From Burkholderiales bacterium (GTDB lineage: Bacteria > Pseudomonadota > Gammaproteobacteria > Burkholderiales > Casimicrobiaceae), in NCBI GenBank assembly GCA_020853025.1, contig JADYZP010000012.1:1-51629 (forward strand): 51,629 nt of DNA. The letters run 5' to 3'. Below are positions 20,027 to 27,158 of this stretch, in pieces. Both the position numbers and the translations under genes were made by a program. The notes under the pieces are model-generated. The model did no database searches. It was not told where the DNA came from and was given only the letters and a program-made list of their open reading frames with translations. Every line of letters begins with the position of its first letter. Positions within the stretch are counted from its first letter, which is position 1.

Positions 20027-21910
20027 TCAGCGATCGTCGCCGCGCAGCGCCAGCACGCGTGCCTGCAGCGCTTCCGGCGTAGCGTCGGACGGCGGCACCG
20101 GAGGTGCGACGATCAGCGCGATGCGCGAGAACACGCCGCGCAGGCGACGCATCGCGCGGCCCTCGCACGAACGGCTGAAGAAGCTGCCCCACAGACCCCG
20201 CAGCGCCATCGGTACCACCGGCACCGGCGTTTCCTGCACCATGCGCTCGATACCCGGACGAAAGGTCTGCAGCTCGCCGTCGGCAGTCAATGCGCCTTCC
20301 GGGAAAATGCCGACCGCCTCGCCGGCGCGCAGCGCCTTGGCCGCGGTGGAAAACGCCTCCTCCTTCAGGTTCGCGTCCTCGCGCGCCGAGGCCACCGGAA
20401 TCGCCTGCATGGTGCGGAACAGCCAGTTGAGCAGCGGCACCCGGAAGATGCGGTGGTCCATGATGAAGCGGATCGGGCGCCTTACCGAGGCGGCGATGAC
20501 GATCGCGTCGACGTAGCTCACGTGATTGCAGACGACGATGCAGCCGCCTTTCTCGGGCACGTTGTCCAGGCCCTCCTCGTGCACGCGATAAACGGTGTGG
20601 ATCAAGAGCCACGCGAGGAAGCGCATCAGGAACTCGGGCACCAGCTTGTAGATGAAAAGCGCAATCACCGCGTTGAGGATGCCGACGACCAGGAACAGAA
20701 AGGGAATCGAAAGCCCGGCGCGCAAGAGGACGATCGCAAGGCCGGCGGAGGCGACCATGAACAGTGCGTTCAGGATGTTGTTGGCGGCGATGATCCGCGA
20801 CCGGTACGCGGGATCCGAGCGTTGCTGGATCAGCGCGTACAGCGGCACGATGTAGAAGCCGCCGAAGAGGCCGATCAGCATCAGGTCGACGATGACGCGC
20901 CAGTGCGCGGGTTCGGACAGGAATACGCCGATCCCTGAAAGACCCGTGGCGTGCAGCGACCGGGTCGCGAACCACAGGTCGATTGCGAACAGCGTCAGCC
21001 CGATCGAGCCAAAAGGAACGAGCCCGATCTCGACCTTGCGGCCCGACAGCCGTTCGCACAGCAGCGAACCCGCGCCGATGCCCACCGAGAACAGCGCCAG
21101 CAGCAGCGTGACCACGTGTTCGTCGCCGCCCAGGATCTCCCTGGCGAAGTTGGGGAACTGGGTCAGGAACGCCGCGCCGTAGAACCAGAACCAGGAAATG
21201 CCGAGCATCGACAGCCACACGACGCGGTTGCCATACGCGAAGCGCAGGTTCTTCCAGGTCTCGGTGAAGGGGTTCCAGTTGAGTTTGAGATCCGGCGCCA
21301 CGGCCGGCGTCTCGGGAATGCCTCGGCTCACCAGCCAGCCGACGACGGCGACGGCGAACGCTGCCGCACCGGCCAACAGGGGTCCTATCCCCGGTACCGC
21401 CACCAGCAAACCGCCGGCGATGGTGCCAAGGAGGATCGCGACGAAGGTCCCCATCTCGACCAGGCCATTGCCGCCGACCAGCTCCTCGGGCGATAGCTGC
21501 TGCGGCAGAATCGCGTACTTGACGGGTCCGAACAGCGTCGATTGCACACCCAGCAATGTGAGCGCGACGAAGAGCAGCAGCAGATTCGACTGCCAAAAGC
21601 CGACGACGCCGATCACCATGATCGCGATCTCGAGCAGCTTGGTTGCCCGGATCAACCTCGATTTCTCGTACTTGTCGGCGAGCTGTCCCGCCGTCGCCGA
21701 CAGCAAGACGAAGGGCAGGATGAACAGGCCCGCGGCGAGGTTGACCAGCGTGTTGGCGTCGAGCGTCGAGTTCGCCGCCGCGTGAAAGGCGACGAAGATA
21801 ATCAGCGCGTTCTTGTAGAGATTGTCGTTGCCGGCACCGGCGAACTGCGTCCAGAAAAAAGGCGCGAAGCGGCGCTCGCGAAGCAGGTCGTACTGGCTGT
21901 GCGTGGACAT
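20027..21910 (-). CDS. Lysophospholipid transporter (LplT-like MFS) fused to a PlsC acyltransferase
   Basis: A 627-residue two-domain protein. Residues about 10-415 are a 12-helix MFS domain of the LplT type (QFAGAGNDNLYKNALIIF, GPVKYAILPQ). Residues about 420-600 are a PlsC-type acyltransferase with the catalytic CNHVSYVDA (NHx4D) and FPEGALT. Together they would flip lysophospholipid inward and re-acylate it. Related proteins often carry a third acyl-ACP synthetase domain (Aas); this one ends after the PlsC domain. ATG 21910 gives the STHSQYDLLRERRFAPFFW start; an upstream ATG (21991) adds unsupported residues. It is divergent from thyA. Confidence 0.9.
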   Translation of the reverse strand: MSTHSQYDLLRERRFAPFFWTQFAGAGNDNLYKNALIIFVAFHAAANSTLDANTLVNLAAGLFILPFVLLSATAGQLADKYEKSRLIRATKLLEIAIMVIGVVGFWQSNLLLLFVALTLLGVQSTLFGPVKYAILPQQLSPEELVGGNGLVEMGTFVAILLGTIAGGLLVAVPGIGPLLAGAAAFAVAVVGWLVSRGIPETPAVAPDLKLNWNPFTETWKNLRFAYGNRVVWLSMLGISWFWFYGAAFLTQFPNFAREILGGDEHVVTLLLALFSVGIGAGSLLCERLSGRKVEIGLVPFGSIGLTLFAIDLWFATRSLHATGLSGIGVFLSEPAHWRVIVDLMLIGLFGGFYIVPLYALIQQRSDPAYRSRIIAANNILNALFMVASAGLAIVLLRAGLSIPFLFLVVGILNAVIALFIYKLVPEFLMRFLAWLLIHTVYRVHEEGLDNVPEKGGCIVVCNHVSYVDAIVIAASVRRPIRFIMDHRIFRVPLLNWLFRTMQAIPVASAREDANLKEEAFSTAAKALRAGEAVGIFPEGALTADGELQTFRPGIERMVQETPVPVVPMALRGLWGSFFSRSCEGRAMRRLRGVFSRIALIVAPPVPPSDATPEALQARVLALRGDDR

Positions 21911-22949: not shown

Positions 22950-22981
22950 AAAAAAAGCCCGCCGGGAGGAATTGAGCGGGC
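22950..22981 (-). terminator. Strong intrinsic terminator of the sigma-54 unit
   Basis: Read on the minus strand, GCCCGC (22981-22976) pairs with GCGGGC (22962-22957) and is followed at once by seven Ts (22956-22950). There is no T run in the plus direction, so it does not serve thyA. It ends a leftward transcript whose only plausible origin is the sigma-54 promoter at 23266-23281. Confidence 0.8.
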
Positions 22982-23060
22982 AAGGGGGTTCCGATGACCG
23001 GAGCTTTGGACCCACTCCGCGAGGTTCCGGGACTTGCGCCGCCCGGAGGCGTAAAAAAGT

Positions 23061-23222
23061 TCAGACGACGCTGCGCGCAGCACTCACGCGTTCGGCGAGT
23101 TCTTCGAGTGCTGCCTGCTGCACCCCCGACTCCTCGTCGCGCTGCCGACGTTTGGCGTCGACGCGCGCTTCGGCGGCTTCGGGAAGCCAGAATCTCGAAA
23201 ACTCCGGTGCGAACGTGTCCAT
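23061..23222 (-). CDS. Putative 53-residue protein in the GlrR/sigma-54 unit
   Basis: A short open frame from ATG 23222 to TGA 23063. The product begins MDTFAPEFSRFWLPEAAEAR, continues with a very charged stretch (DAKRRQRDEESG) and ends in a second helix-like part (QQAALEELAERVSAARSVV). It has no signal peptide or cysteine, and I know no family for it. Support: it lies about 33 nt after the expected sigma-54 start site, it stops about 80 nt before a strong terminator, and its third codon positions are about 70% GC. Against: the ribosome site is weak (GAGA about 7 nt before the start). The transcript could instead be a non-coding regulator. Confidence 0.45.
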   Translation of the reverse strand: MDTFAPEFSRFWLPEAAEARVDAKRRQRDEESGVQQAALEELAERVSAARSVV

Positions 23223-23265
23223 TGCGGTCTCGATCTCGGGGGAAACTTCTGCTCACTCTCATTTA

Positions 23266-23281
23266 AGCAATCGATATGCCA
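23266..23281 (-). promoter_or_regulatory. Sigma-54 (-24/-12) promoter
   Basis: On the minus strand TGGCATATCGATTGCT: TGGCA (-24), six bases, TTGC (-12) and T. Spacing is exactly that of the RpoN consensus TGGCACRNNNNTTGCW, with C to T at one position. Transcription should start near 23255. Two GlrR-type operators lie about 148 and 213 bp upstream of that point, the usual range for a sigma-54 enhancer. A weak IHF-like sequence (GATCAACTCCTCG, 23296-23308, two mismatches) lies between promoter and operators. Confidence 0.7.
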
Positions 23282-23393
23282 GGAATGCGCAGCCTGATCA
23301 ACTCCTCGCTGATGCAGGGCGTTTCACGAGCGAAACACCAGCGGTCGCCATTGCAGCCGTCTCGTAGTCGCGTGCGCCGGAAAACTACTCGAA

Positions 23394-23411
23394 TGTCGCA
23401 CGTCGCCGACA
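23394..23411. promoter_or_regulatory. GlrR-type operator, proximal (TGTC-N10-GACA)
   Basis: TGTC at 23394-23397 and GACA at 23408-23411 with exactly ten bases between. This is the operator reported for GlrR upstream of glmY in E. coli and relatives. Its centre is about 148 bp before the expected start of the sigma-54 transcript. Confidence 0.65.
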
Positions 23412-23458
23412 GCGTTCATGACAATAGCATTAACGCACTGATTTCATGGGCTAAAGCT

Positions 23459-23476
23459 TGTCGTTTTCGCCCGACA
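23459..23476. promoter_or_regulatory. GlrR-type operator, distal (TGTC-N10-GACA)
   Basis: TGTC at 23459-23462 and GACA at 23473-23476, again with exactly ten bases between. It starts 17 bp after the end of glrR, and its centre is 65 bp from that of the proximal operator, so both may be bound by one GlrR oligomer. Confidence 0.65.
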
Positions 23477-23493: not shown

Positions 23494-24864
23494 CTAGGCT
23501 TTGGCTTCCTTGAACATCCCCGGCTCGAGGCTGTGCCGCTGCAGAAGCTTGTAGAACTCGGTGCGGTTGCGCTTGGCGAGCTGTGCCGCCTGCGTGACGT
23601 TGCCGCCGGTGATCTTGAGCAGCCGAACCAGATAGTCGCGCTCGAAGGACTTGCGCGCCTCCTCGAACGGCACCAGCGCCGCGGCGTCCTCCTTCAGCGC
23701 GTTCTGCACCAGCGTGGACGAGATCATCGACGTCGTTGTCAACGCGAGTGTCTGTTCGAGCAGGTTCAGCAGCTGCCGCACGTTGCCGGGCCACGGCGCC
23801 GCCACCAGCATCGCCATCGCATCGGGCGCCAATGTCGGCGCCGGCTTGCGATAGCGCTCGGCCAGCCGCCGCAGGAAATGTGCGGCGAGCACCGGAATGT
23901 CCTCGCGGCGCTCGGCCAATGTGGGCATCTTCAGCGAAACGACATTGAGGCGATAGTAGAGGTCCTCGCGGAACTGCCCGGACGCCTTTTGCGCATCGAG
24001 ATCGCGATGCGTGGCCGAAATCACGCGCACGTCGACCGGAATCGCCTGCGTGGAACCCACGGGACGCACCTCACCTTCCTGCAGCACGCGTAACAACTTG
24101 ACCTGCAGCGTCAGCGGCATGTCGCCGATTTCGTCGAGCAGCAGCGTACCGCCGTCGGCCGCCTGGAACAGTCCCTTGTGCGCCTGGACGGCACCCGTGA
24201 ACGCACCGCGCGCATGCCCGAAGAGCTCGGACTCCAGGAGTTCGGCGGGGATCGCGCCGCAGTTCACCGCGATGAACGGGCGGTCGCGCCGCGGGCTCGC
24301 GCGGTGGATCGCCCGCGCCAAGAGCTCCTTCCCGGTGCCCGACTCGCCGTAGATGAGAACGCTGGCGTCCGATTCGGCGACGAGCTTCGCCTGCCGCAGC
24401 AGATCCTCGACCAGCGGGCTGCGGGTGATGAAACCCTCGCGCCACTCGCCGATGCCGGCGTCGCCGCGGCCGACGTCGTGGCCGGACAGCTTCAGCGCCG
24501 AGGCGACCTTGGCCAGCAGTTCCTGGCTGTCGAAGGGCTTGGTCAGGAACGCGAAGACGCCGCGCTGCGTCGCCGCGACCGCGTCCGGGATCGTGCCGTG
24601 CGCGGTCAGGATCAACACCGGCAATCCGGCGTACTGACGGCTTATGGCGTCGAAGAGCTGCAGGCCGTCGATTCCCGGCATCTTGAGATCGGTGACGACG
24701 ACCGCCGGACGGCGCACGGCGATCGCCGCCAGCGCGGTCCCGCCGCTTTCTGCCGTGCGGACGCGATAGCCGGCGGAAGTCAGACGCAGGCTGATCAGCT
24801 TCAGGAGATCCGGATCGTCGTCGACCAGGAGTATGTCTCCGGCCAATTCGTTTACGTTGGTCAT
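23494..24864 (-). CDS. glrR: Sigma-54-dependent response regulator GlrR (QseF)
   Basis: Two-component activator of sigma-54 promoters. The 456-residue product has a receiver domain (1-120; acidic pocket D15-D17, phospho-acceptor D59, T87, K109). The AAA+ domain follows, with Walker A GESGTGKE at 173-180, the sigma-54 contact loop GAFTGA at 220-225 and Walker B LLLDEIG at 241-247. The C-terminal helix-turn-helix is GNVTQAAQLAKRNRTEFYKL. The receiver GTIPDAVAATQRGVFAFLTKP and the HTH NRTEFYKLL match E. coli GlrR closely, which is why I name it. It is last in the glrK - lipoprotein - glrR operon. Two matching operators and a sigma-54 promoter lie just downstream. Confidence 0.93.
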   Translation of the reverse strand: MTNVNELAGDILLVDDDPDLLKLISLRLTSAGYRVRTAESGGTALAAIAVRRPAVVVTDLKMPGIDGLQLFDAISRQYAGLPVLILTAHGTIPDAVAATQRGVFAFLTKPFDSQELLAKVASALKLSGHDVGRGDAGIGEWREGFITRSPLVEDLLRQAKLVAESDASVLIYGESGTGKELLARAIHRASPRRDRPFIAVNCGAIPAELLESELFGHARGAFTGAVQAHKGLFQAADGGTLLLDEIGDMPLTLQVKLLRVLQEGEVRPVGSTQAIPVDVRVISATHRDLDAQKASGQFREDLYYRLNVVSLKMPTLAERREDIPVLAAHFLRRLAERYRKPAPTLAPDAMAMLVAAPWPGNVRQLLNLLEQTLALTTTSMISSTLVQNALKEDAAALVPFEEARKSFERDYLVRLLKITGGNVTQAAQLAKRNRTEFYKLLQRHSLEPGMFKEAKA

Positions 24865-24870
24865 TTGCCT

Positions 24871-25665
24871 CTAGCCCCCTCCACCGCTGCCGCCGCTGCC
24901 GCCACCGGAACCGCCGGATCCACCACTGCCGCCGCCACCGCCACCACCGCCGCTGCGGACACGATCACGCAGCAGGCTGCGTTCCATCTGCCGCAGTGCT
25001 TCGAGCTTTTGCAGCGCGGCGTCGGCCTTTTGCTGCTCTTCACGCACTGCGCGCTGGCGACCGGCGATCTGCAGATGCAGGACGAAGGCGAGCTGCTTCA
25101 CCGACGCCGAACCGCTGTGGTTCTTCGCAACATTGTCGAGAAGCTGCAGCGCCCGCTGGTCGTCCTGCGGGTTGGCGCGCGACAGCGTGAACAAGACCGC
25201 GAGACGCACGCGGTTCGCGTCGGTTCGCTGTCGCGACAGCGACTGCGTGGCGCTGGTGAGCTCGCGCTTCACTTCGTCGGGGGACAGCGCACCGTAGCGC
25301 TGCAGATCCGCAAGCAGCACGACGAGTTCGCTGTCTTCGACGACCGTCGGCGGCAGCACGACCGGCGGCGGCGTGATGAGCACCGACGGCGGCGCCGTCG
25401 CCACCGCGCCCGTCTGCTCCTGCGGGGCGGAAGCCGGCTCGGGCTGTGGCGAGGCCGCCGGAGACGTCGCGGCCGGTGCGGACTCCACCAGAGGCGGCTC
25501 GACCGGCTCGATCGGCGGGTACTCGACCAGCGGCGTCGGCACGGTGGCGAGCTCCGGCTGGTACTCCTCCTCGATCGTCAGTTGCGGCGGCGGCGTCGTC
25601 GCACAGCCAGCGAGCACCAGCCCGGCAACGACGAACACCACCGTCCGTTTCAGCAAGTCGCTCAC
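24871..25665 (-). CDS. YfhG/QseG-like lipoprotein with glycine-rich tail
   Basis: A 264-residue lipoprotein between the sensor kinase and the regulator, the place of yfhG/qseG in enterobacteria. The signal peptide ends in the lipobox LVLAGC with the modified Cys at 21. Residues 25-110 are a proline/alanine-rich extension. Residues 112-235 are helical (SRQRTDANRVRLAVLFTLSRAN, then REEQQKADAALQKLEALRQMERSLL), the part resembling QseG. The last 25 residues are almost pure Gly/Ser, which is unusual. It starts at GTG 25665, overlapping the glrK stop by GTGA, and ends 6 bp before glrR. QseG in E. coli lies in the outer membrane and activates the kinase; the same role is inferred here. Confidence 0.8.
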   Translation of the reverse strand: MSDLLKRTVVFVVAGLVLAGCATTPPPQLTIEEEYQPELATVPTPLVEYPPIEPVEPPLVESAPAATSPAASPQPEPASAPQEQTGAVATAPPSVLITPPPVVLPPTVVEDSELVVLLADLQRYGALSPDEVKRELTSATQSLSRQRTDANRVRLAVLFTLSRANPQDDQRALQLLDNVAKNHSGSASVKQLAFVLHLQIAGRQRAVREEQQKADAALQKLEALRQMERSLLRDRVRSGGGGGGGGSGGSGGSGGGSGGSGGGG

Positions 25666-27158
25666 GAATGGCCTTCGACGGCGGTCGCCGCAGCGACCTG
25701 CGTCGACGTCGCGTGATGGATCGCGTCGACACCGAGTGCCAGCGGCAGCGAAAGACGGAAACGAACGCCGCGGTGTCCGTCGCCGCGATCGAGAATCTCG
25801 ATGCGCCCGCCTTGCGCCAACGTGTATTCGCGGGCTATCGCGAGCCCGAGGCCGGAACCCTTGACCCTGCCGTCGACCGGCGCCGTACCCGAGTAAAAGG
25901 AGTCGAAGACGCGTTCGCGTTCAGCGGCCGCGATGCCGGGACCGTGATCGGCGACATCGAGCACCGCGAAGCCGTCGTTCTCGGTCAAGTCCAACTCGAT
26001 CACGCCGGAGCGAGGCGAATACTTGATGGCGTTCGAAATCAGGTTGTCGATGACCGTCCGGATCTTTTCCGCGTCGCCCACCACAACGGCCGCGGCGAGC
26101 TTCGACTCGAAGGTGATCATCCGCGCGACGGCCGCGAGCTTCTGCTCGCGCAAAACGCGCCGTACGACGTCGGCGACCGGTACCGGACCCAGCGTCGCGG
26201 GCTCCAGCGCGCGCGACTGGTGGTAGGTGAGCAGGTTCTCGATCAGCTTCTGCAGCGACAGCGTATTCTCGCGGACGATGCGCACGATGTCGTGCTGCTC
26301 CGGCGTCAAACGGCCGCCGACGCTATCGCGCAGCAATTCGACGCCTTCGCGGACCGCGGTGAGCGGCGTCTTCAGCTCGTGCGAGACGTGCCGCAAGAAG
26401 CGCGTCTGCTGCTGCTCGAGTTCACTCAGACGAGAGCGCAGCCATTCGAGTCTTTGCCCGACATAGCGCAGGTCCTGCGGACCGTTGACTTCGATCGCGT
26501 GCGAGAAGTCCGCCGTTCCCAATTGGCGGATTGCGAGGTCGAGCTGCCGGATCGGGCGCGCGATCAGCACGGCGAAGACGATGGCGAGCAGCAGCGCAAT
26601 CGCCACCGTCGACAACGCGAGGTAGAGCCATTTCTCGCGGCCCTGCGCCGCGGTGTCCTGCAGGCGCTCGATCGCACGCTGCGTCAACTGCGCGGTCGCA
26701 TTGAGCATCCCCTGTGTGCGCTCGACCAGGTTGGCGTAGCCATCGGCGAGCTGCGCCACGTCCTTGGGTGAGCGCTGCTGCGAGATCAGGATCTGGTGCA
26801 GATGGTTCTCGCGCTCGCGAATCTGGTCGAGTGCGGCGAGCTGCTTGGGCTCGAGCGGCAGCAGCGACAACTGGCGCGTGGTCTCGCGAAAGTCCTGGCG
26901 CATGCGGCCGTAGTCGTCGAGCAGCGCCGGGTCTTCGAGGATGATCTGTTGCCGCGCCAGTCGCTCGAGCGTGGTCACCTGCTCGAACAACAGCCGGCTC
27001 GAACGTCCGGCCGCCGAGGCCTGCAGCACCTCCTGCCGGCTTTGCGTCGCGAGCCGGTCGAGCGAGAGGACGAGTTCGCCCAGTGCGTAGACCAGCGGCA
27101 GGCTGACCAGCAGGAAGCCCAACAGGATGAACTTGAGGAACGAACGCGGGTAATACAC
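25662..27158 (-). CDS. glrK: Sensor histidine kinase GlrK (QseE)
   Basis: Membrane sensor kinase of the GlrKR system. The 498-residue product has a first membrane helix (about 8-30), a helical periplasmic domain of about 145 residues and a second helix (177-199). A HAMP-like linker follows (ARPIRQLDLAIRQLGTADF), then the H-box HVSHELKTPL with H260. The ATPase carries the N-box NLISNAIKYSP, DHGPGI and GSGLGLAIAREY. A short hydrophobic C-terminal extension follows the ATPase. The start is GTG 27158; a GATAAT -10 lies about 30 bp upstream. The signal it senses is unknown. Confidence 0.93.
   Translation of the reverse strand: MYYPRSFLKFILLGFLLVSLPLVYALGELVLSLDRLATQSRQEVLQASAAGRSSRLLFEQVTTLERLARQQIILEDPALLDDYGRMRQDFRETTRQLSLLPLEPKQLAALDQIRERENHLHQILISQQRSPKDVAQLADGYANLVERTQGMLNATAQLTQRAIERLQDTAAQGREKWLYLALSTVAIALLLAIVFAVLIARPIRQLDLAIRQLGTADFSHAIEVNGPQDLRYVGQRLEWLRSRLSELEQQQTRFLRHVSHELKTPLTAVREGVELLRDSVGGRLTPEQHDIVRIVRENTLSLQKLIENLLTYHQSRALEPATLGPVPVADVVRRVLREQKLAAVARMITFESKLAAAVVVGDAEKIRTVIDNLISNAIKYSPRSGVIELDLTENDGFAVLDVADHGPGIAAAERERVFDSFYSGTAPVDGRVKGSGLGLAIAREYTLAQGGRIEILDRGDGHRGVRFRLSLPLALGVDAIHHATSTQVAAATAVEGHS

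Follow-up and report, generated by a model that had tools for sequence, protein, structure and literature searches.

The window, a 51,629-nucleotide stretch of DNA from a member of the Casimicrobiaceae (Burkholderiales), carries genes for a sensor kinase, a middle protein and a response regulator in the order of E. coli glrK-qseG-glrR (27158-23494, minus strand; Table 1). The HAMP match of the kinase scores below its cut-off, and the middle gene has no match in Pfam. The regulator shares 61% identity and the NRTEFYKLL segment with E. coli GlrR; its top NCBIfam match, the GlrR model NF011695, reaches 638.6 bits, under the curated cut-off of 763 bits, and many bEBP models also score against the protein. 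Although the NCBIfam cut-off is missed, the regulator looks like GlrR by its identity, gene order and recognition segment, and the earlier sequence-only reading had named it so. Downstream of glrR and on its strand, two dyads begin after 17 bases, and a -24/-12 element, a frame of 53 codons and a terminator follow; thyA converges on the unit from the opposite side.

Table 1. Genes and predicted regulatory elements of the glrR locus, in the direction of transcription of glrR.
Feature	Position	Strand	Basis
Sensor kinase gene, predicted glrK/qseE	25662..27158	-	HisKA, HATPase_c and HAMP matches; E. coli gene order
Middle gene, predicted qseG by position	24871..25665	-	Position as E. coli qseG
glrR/qseF response regulator gene	23494..24864	-	NCBIfam best match NF011695; identity to E. 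coli GlrR
Distal GlrR-type dyad TGTC-N10-GACA	23459..23476	.	Exact match
IHF-like site AATCAGTGCGTTA	23431..23443	-	13/13 to WATCARNNNNTTR; between dyads
Proximal GlrR-type dyad TGTC-N10-GACA	23394..23411	.	Exact match; 65 bp from distal dyad
Sigma-54 promoter -24/-12 element TGGCATATCGATTGCT	23266..23281	-	Sole exact TGGC-N7-TTGCW match in window
Small gene, 53 residues, MDTFAPEFSRFWL...ALEELAERVSAARSVV	23061..23222	-	Conserved frame, third-position differences
CCCCCUU stretch, predicted first pairing site	22982..22988	-	Directly 5' of terminator; alignment A2, 24 loci
Terminator hairpin GCCCGC-UCAAUUCCUCCCG-GCGGGC	22957..22981	-	Stem-loop read in sequence
CCUCCC in terminator loop, predicted second pairing site (anti-Shine-Dalgarno)	22964..22969	-	Alignment A2, other families' loops
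Terminator U run	22950..22956	-	Read in sequence

No exact TGTC-N10-GACA match besides the two dyads occurs in the window. The expected number is 0.68, but 14 of 100 shuffled sequences also reach 2, and the count by itself therefore lacks significance. For this reason, conservation was checked in relatives, and the significance of the elements rests on their arrangement and conservation. The -24/-12 pattern with one mismatch is matched 25 times in the window against 20 expected. Transcription is predicted to start near 23255. The site between the dyads corresponds at every position to WATCARNNNNTTR, the IHF consensus.

DNA of the interval matched 42 of the 61 genomes searched (the window's own counted), mostly through the glrR end, and the small protein was matched in 26 of them. 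The 27 protein matches, less a short contig fragment (L050) and a second match in G034 that lacks the dyads (L052), form a set of 25 family loci. All 25 carry the dyad pair, spaced by 65 bp in 23 loci, 66 bp in one and 67 bp in one; both dyads are exact in 14 loci, and a single mismatch affects one of the two in the other 11. The -24/-12 element (up to 2 mismatches) is likewise present throughout, and its start is 115-139 bp away from that of the second dyad. Scored against the IHF consensus, the best match lies at one fixed offset in 22 of the 25 loci, with a mean score of 12.0 versus 10.4 in shuffles. The sequence-only reading had described the perfect dyads, the sigma-54 element and the intrinsic terminator and had proposed to look for them in relatives; all three stand in the window, and they recur in the family, the terminator in all loci except one (see below). 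The loss of dyads or promoter in relatives, which would have spoken against that reading, is therefore not what the family shows.

In E. coli, three dyads of the TGTC-N10-GACA form lie upstream of glmY. Published work reports that the sigma-54-dependent glmY promoter is preceded by three such sites, to which QseF binds with the help of IHF (PMC6075780), and gives TGTCN10GACA as the QseF/GlrR consensus (PMC8745638), in agreement with the parallel to glmY control drawn in the sequence-only reading. GlrR control of the unit is thus predicted. The same reading had placed this target at the far end of the glr operon, which is where it lies in the window, but the placement does not extend to all relatives. 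The G012 unit, complete with its dyads, lies 5 kb away from glrR, and in the sister genus (g2), the protein profile located it approximately 32 kb from glrR in G022 and on another contig in G028. With the dyads kept at a distance from the regulator gene in G012 and in g2, the unit is not tied to the position of glrR.

The small gene is a frame of 48-57 residues in 25 of 25 family loci, with the consensus MDxFAPEFxxxWL ... ALEELAERVxAARSVV and, with start codons picked so as to align, five invariant columns (M1, L42, A48, A49 and R50). Differences at the three codon positions amount to 0.226, 0.219 and 0.396 in 23 close pairs, an excess at the third position. With E values of 0.01 or lower, the protein profile gave 1,214 matches in the database; none of the 120 matches listed carries a Pfam domain, and their named sources include Casimicrobiaceae and Betaproteobacteria MAGs. 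The window copy has no match in Pfam or NCBIfam. Among 300 sampled genomes of the order, the protein was found in 6, all from the window's own family (f1), and its predicted structure is mostly one long helix, at moderate confidence (pLDDT 78, pTM 0.42). The invariant residues, the third-position excess and the number of database matches all argue against the unit being a gene for a non-coding small RNA (sRNA) with an untranslated 53-codon frame. We regard that alternative as very improbable, even though the Shine-Dalgarno sequences look weak in many loci and the GlrR target known from enterobacteria, GlmY, is itself annotated as a regulatory sRNA.

Downstream of the frame, 24 of the 25 loci share a C-rich sequence that ends in CCCC..-GCCCGC-loop-GCGGG-U run, with the loop CUCCUCCC or a variant of it. 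A terminator consensus scan did not list the terminator of the window because the scan limited loops to 3-8 bases. This 3' module is near-invariant in the 24 loci, while the small proteins are about 50% identical, and the best DNA matches of the unit outside glrR are at its 3' end (examples are G007, with 87% over 113 bases, and G025, with 95% over 42), which speaks against a unit that serves the small protein only. In such a unit, the module would be a plain strong terminator and its CCUCCC loop would have no regulatory role, a possibility that we consider unlikely, though with several points in its favor: the small gene is conserved, a short operon needs a terminator, and G017 keeps the dyads, promoter and gene with the module missing. 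Moreover, in alignment A2 (24 loci, with L051, which lacks the module, left out), there is zero covariation in the window's genus because the terminator stem hardly varies.

Folding of the 54-nt module leaves CCCCCUU unpaired, with a stability relative to shuffles of z -1.84; against shuffles, the 107-nt and 310-nt folds show no gain in stability (z 0.05 and -0.94), and the shorter of the two has some of the 3' module paired elsewhere. The RNA pattern alone, run over the genome collection, retrieved 25 stretches, 14 betaproteobacterial and 11 others. All 14 betaproteobacterial stretches combine the small gene with a sigma-54-like site, and in 11 the dyad pair is present too; in the remaining three (L109, L114 and L115), the sequence starts no more than 460 bases from the match. 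The 11 other stretches lack both the small gene and the dyad pair, and 2 of them have a sigma-54-like site. With at least 10 of the 14 betaproteobacterial stretches coming from genomes already used, the scan is a specificity test rather than fresh evidence. The sequence-only reading had postulated an undescribed product encoded in about 305 nt. No Rfam or Pfam name attaches to the unit, in keeping with that proposal, but the product does not appear to be an RNA only, given the conserved 53-codon gene next to the CCCCCUU/CCUCCC module.

The module takes a different form in g2, where 15 of 17 genomes have the small gene and the following counts take in 14 of 15 loci (L249 was left out as not resolved). 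All 14 have two dyads, each with at most 1 mismatch, spaced by 65-66 bp, and a TGGCAC-type sigma-54 element, the -12 end of which is CCGC instead of TTGC in 13. Here, the CUCC motif lies in a separate hairpin, outside the terminator loop, and the stretch UUUCCUCCCCCGGUC is invariant in the 14 loci. The hairpin is followed by UCUCGUGA and, in 11 of the 14 loci, by UCCCC; the terminator that comes next varies in sequence. Of its 12 base pairs, 5 are changed on both sides (3 by our own count without the divergent L248), and 98.7% of the alignment cells pair. The covariation score of 0.249 compares with 0.047-0.088 for slid structures and is reached by 0 of 500 shuffles, a control that leaves relatedness in and is applied to a structure read from the same sequences. 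Compared to shuffles, the folds of L235 and L246 are far stabler (z -5.0 and -4.3), and that of L248 has z -0.5. Thus, the pairing sequence is kept while the stems covary in the g2 hairpin; in the window's genus, such covariation is missing because the stem hardly varies. The position of the motif in a covarying hairpin apart from the terminator further argues against the plain-terminator alternative, and the g2 hairpin is the best evidence for selection on the predicted RNA itself.

Searches across the order suggest that units of this type extend beyond the Casimicrobiaceae. Of 300 genomes sampled from the order, 49 have a dyad pair spaced by 60-72 bp and 2 match a reversed control pattern, and 24 of the 30 dyad-pair loci listed have a sigma-54-like site. 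Directly 3' of glrR, 22 of 58 loci, from 13 families, have a dyad pair and, after it, a sigma-54-like site (21 of 57 without L163, which had been fetched for its dyads), as do 0 of 230 controls; a sigma-54-like site by itself is found in 40 of the 58 loci versus 31 of the 230 controls. L203, L223 and L224, which gave no glrR end, and L225 were left out of these counts. This association with glrR, together with the same dyads at E. coli glmY, where QseF binding is published, makes it improbable that the dyads belong to another sigma-54 activator, such as a PrsR-type regulator, and lie near glrR by chance; for another activator speak the units of g2 and G012 that are not adjacent to glrR and the many bEBP models scoring against the regulator.

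In families f11, f12, f19, f24, f26 and f48, a sigma-54-like site after glrR is followed by other genes and by a terminator with a CCUCC loop. The genes differ between units and encode proteins with an N-terminal membrane segment and C-x2-CG motifs, glycine-zipper proteins, CsbD or DUF6627 proteins; further genes behind dyads were read by eye as OpgG/OpgH-like, BON-domain and cyanophycin-synthetase-like. Among 133 distinct terminator-like hairpins (119 sources, 466 kb), 13 have a CCUCC loop and 120 do not, a further point against the loop being an incidental part of a strong terminator. Of the 13, 12 end units of the sigma-54/GlrR type in f1, f48, f11, f12, f19, f24 and f26, with differing stems; 4 of the 13 come from the window that served as starting point or were retrieved by means of the RNA model. 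The other nine comprise 8 with a sigma-54-like site before the genes, 6 of those also with a dyad, and one (L186 in G022, approximately 1.5 kb 3' of glrR) with neither. The counted units of G107 and G105 have the sigma-54-like site, yet no dyad within one mismatch. Because the cross-family terminator alignment (A3) was misaligned, stems were tallied from the loop outward: 10 of the 11 positions common to more than one stem show at least 2 pair types, all of them standard. No CCUCC terminator was found in 48 of the 58 glrR loci of the order, with 2.6 kb searched.

The RNA model R1 matched 20 of 250 genomes, 3 in f1, 3 in f48 and 14 elsewhere (weak, 28.8-35.9 bits). In another f48 genus (L158; G165:C33), other genes separate the glrR end from a match of 43.7 bits approximately 2.9 kb further on, and a dyad pair also lies in between. 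Several other arrangements were seen in the order. Nine loci of f49, f20 and f42 (L054, L055, L057, L058 and L070-L074) have dyad pairs and sigma-54-like sites before OpgG/OpgH-like genes, read by eye as genes of periplasmic-glucan synthesis, and three loci of f38 (L076-L078) have them before a gene read by eye as cyanophycin-synthetase-like. Behind dyads 3' of glrR, L069 (G198) has a frame for 53 residues of GGFGGTGAP repeats, which bears no relation to the small protein in the window, and the L186 terminator sits behind a gene read by eye as a PfkB-type kinase.

Searches for targets and for known RNA families gave the following results. The glrR leader of the window contains GGAGGGGG, which complements the module, but feedback on glrR is not supported because most leaders of 12 relatives lack such a G-rich run, although L012 has a similar one (read by eye, with rough start positions). 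As for glmS, considered because of the parallel with GlmY, 12 starts were found in 13 loci of the window's genus, and 2 of these lie within 40 bases of at least one of four short complements, so that glmS is not supported as a target. In the genome of the window itself, 6 starts have GGGAGGAA sites versus 0 and 1 in controls; the genes differ, with no common theme by eye. No Rfam family scored above its cut-off at the window locus. At E up to 10, the matches were SorY, 6A and ar14, all far below their cut-offs, and no Rfam family was matched in ten loci of f11, f12, f19, f24, f26 and f48; GlmY was neither above its cut-off nor among these three, and RF02278 gave no match at E up to 10 either. 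Elsewhere in the same genome, L226 (G000:C46:19658-19721, minus strand) is a weak RF02278-like match with CUCCUCC, at 36.1 bits versus a cut-off of 50. Elsewhere in the window, the Rfam family Bcj11 (Burkholderia RNA 11) is matched at 21131-21252 on the minus strand (54.4 bits, cut-off 49), inside a transporter-acyltransferase gene on the same strand, and this match may be conserved coding sequence rather than RNA.

Among known systems, GlmY, as described in PMC6075780 and PMC8745638, resembles the window unit in its TGTC-N10-GACA sites, sigma-54 promoter, qseE-qseG-qseF neighborhood and RNA output, the last being predicted here, and its IHF dependence has a possible parallel in the IHF-like site. 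However, the GlmY gene lies 5' of glrK, whereas the window unit lies 3' of glrR, contains a conserved protein gene and has no Rfam GlmY match, and the glmS ribosome site is not a conserved match for its module. S17 of Bordetella pertussis has a small ORF, is processed by RNase E, yields a processed sRNA from its 3' part and complements ribosome sites (PMC11722255), and related double-hairpin RNAs are known as bdhR1 of Burkholderia, Rfam RF02278 (PMC5688073). S17 and bdhR1 share with the window module CU-rich pairing sites complementary to ribosome sites in Betaproteobacteria (predicted for the window), and the long form of S17 with its small ORF has a layout comparable to the small gene and predicted 3' sRNA of the window unit. 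By contrast, S17 has a sigma-A promoter, whereas the window unit has a sigma-54 element and lacks an RF02278 match.

Cuckoo RNAs show a CUCC-type loop motif. In alphaproteobacteria, the CcaF1-CcsR1-4/cuckoo RNA (CIN1) system has a small protein gene that is transcribed together with sRNAs, as PMC10253847 describes for CcaF1-CcsR of Rhodobacter, similar to the window unit with its predicted sRNA. It differs in its DUF1127 protein, RpoH promoter and four sRNAs, the window unit having a sigma-54 element and one module; Pfam DUF1127 does not match the 53-residue protein of the window. By the Rfam and Pfam tests, neither S17/RF02278 nor CcaF1-CcsR is a sequence relative of the window unit. The units of f11, f12, f19, f24, f26 and f48 share with it the sigma-54-like site, 3' of glrR or with dyads, and the CCUCC-loop terminator, but differ from it in their genes.

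By sequence, the interval 23476-22950 is a unit with a dyad pair, an IHF-like site, a sigma-54 element, a gene, a near-invariant module and counterparts in other families. We interpret it, with a probability of roughly 60%, as a conserved unit with a GlrR/sigma-54 signature and a dual output, a small protein and a 3' sRNA with Shine-Dalgarno sequences as its pairing partners, which would make it a counterpart of the GlmY pathway. On the model of glmY, the dyads would be bound by phosphorylated GlrR, IHF would bend the DNA, and sigma-54 polymerase would start near 23255, giving one transcript of approximately 306 nt. The 53-residue protein would be translated from this transcript, the final 50-110 nt of which may be excised or remain as an RNA of the Hfq type. 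Activity of the kinase would then let the CCCCCUU and CCUCCC stretches pair with GGGAGG or AAGGGGG ribosome sites, and translation of the mRNAs concerned would decrease. A broader interpretation, to which we give slightly less than even odds, is that GlrR of Burkholderiales drives a new class of sRNAs in seven families, in which the last hairpin carries an anti-Shine-Dalgarno loop (UUCCUCCC) while stems and protein genes are exchanged; the RNA end would then be the ancestral output, and GlmY an enterobacterial solution with an unrelated RNA.

No title or abstract opening describing the unit was found in a literature search that left out most subscription journals, and to our knowledge, little is known of GlrR targets in other bacteria than enterobacteria. 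With its paired sites, IHF-like site and sigma-54 element, the conserved target described here opens the GlrR regulon of Burkholderiales to direct tests. Neither Pfam nor NCBIfam has a name for the protein family that the unit adds, and its RNA module, for which Rfam gives no match at the window locus, would link envelope sensing to translation control. Such a link is the role of GlmY in enterobacteria, but here it would be built from unrelated parts.
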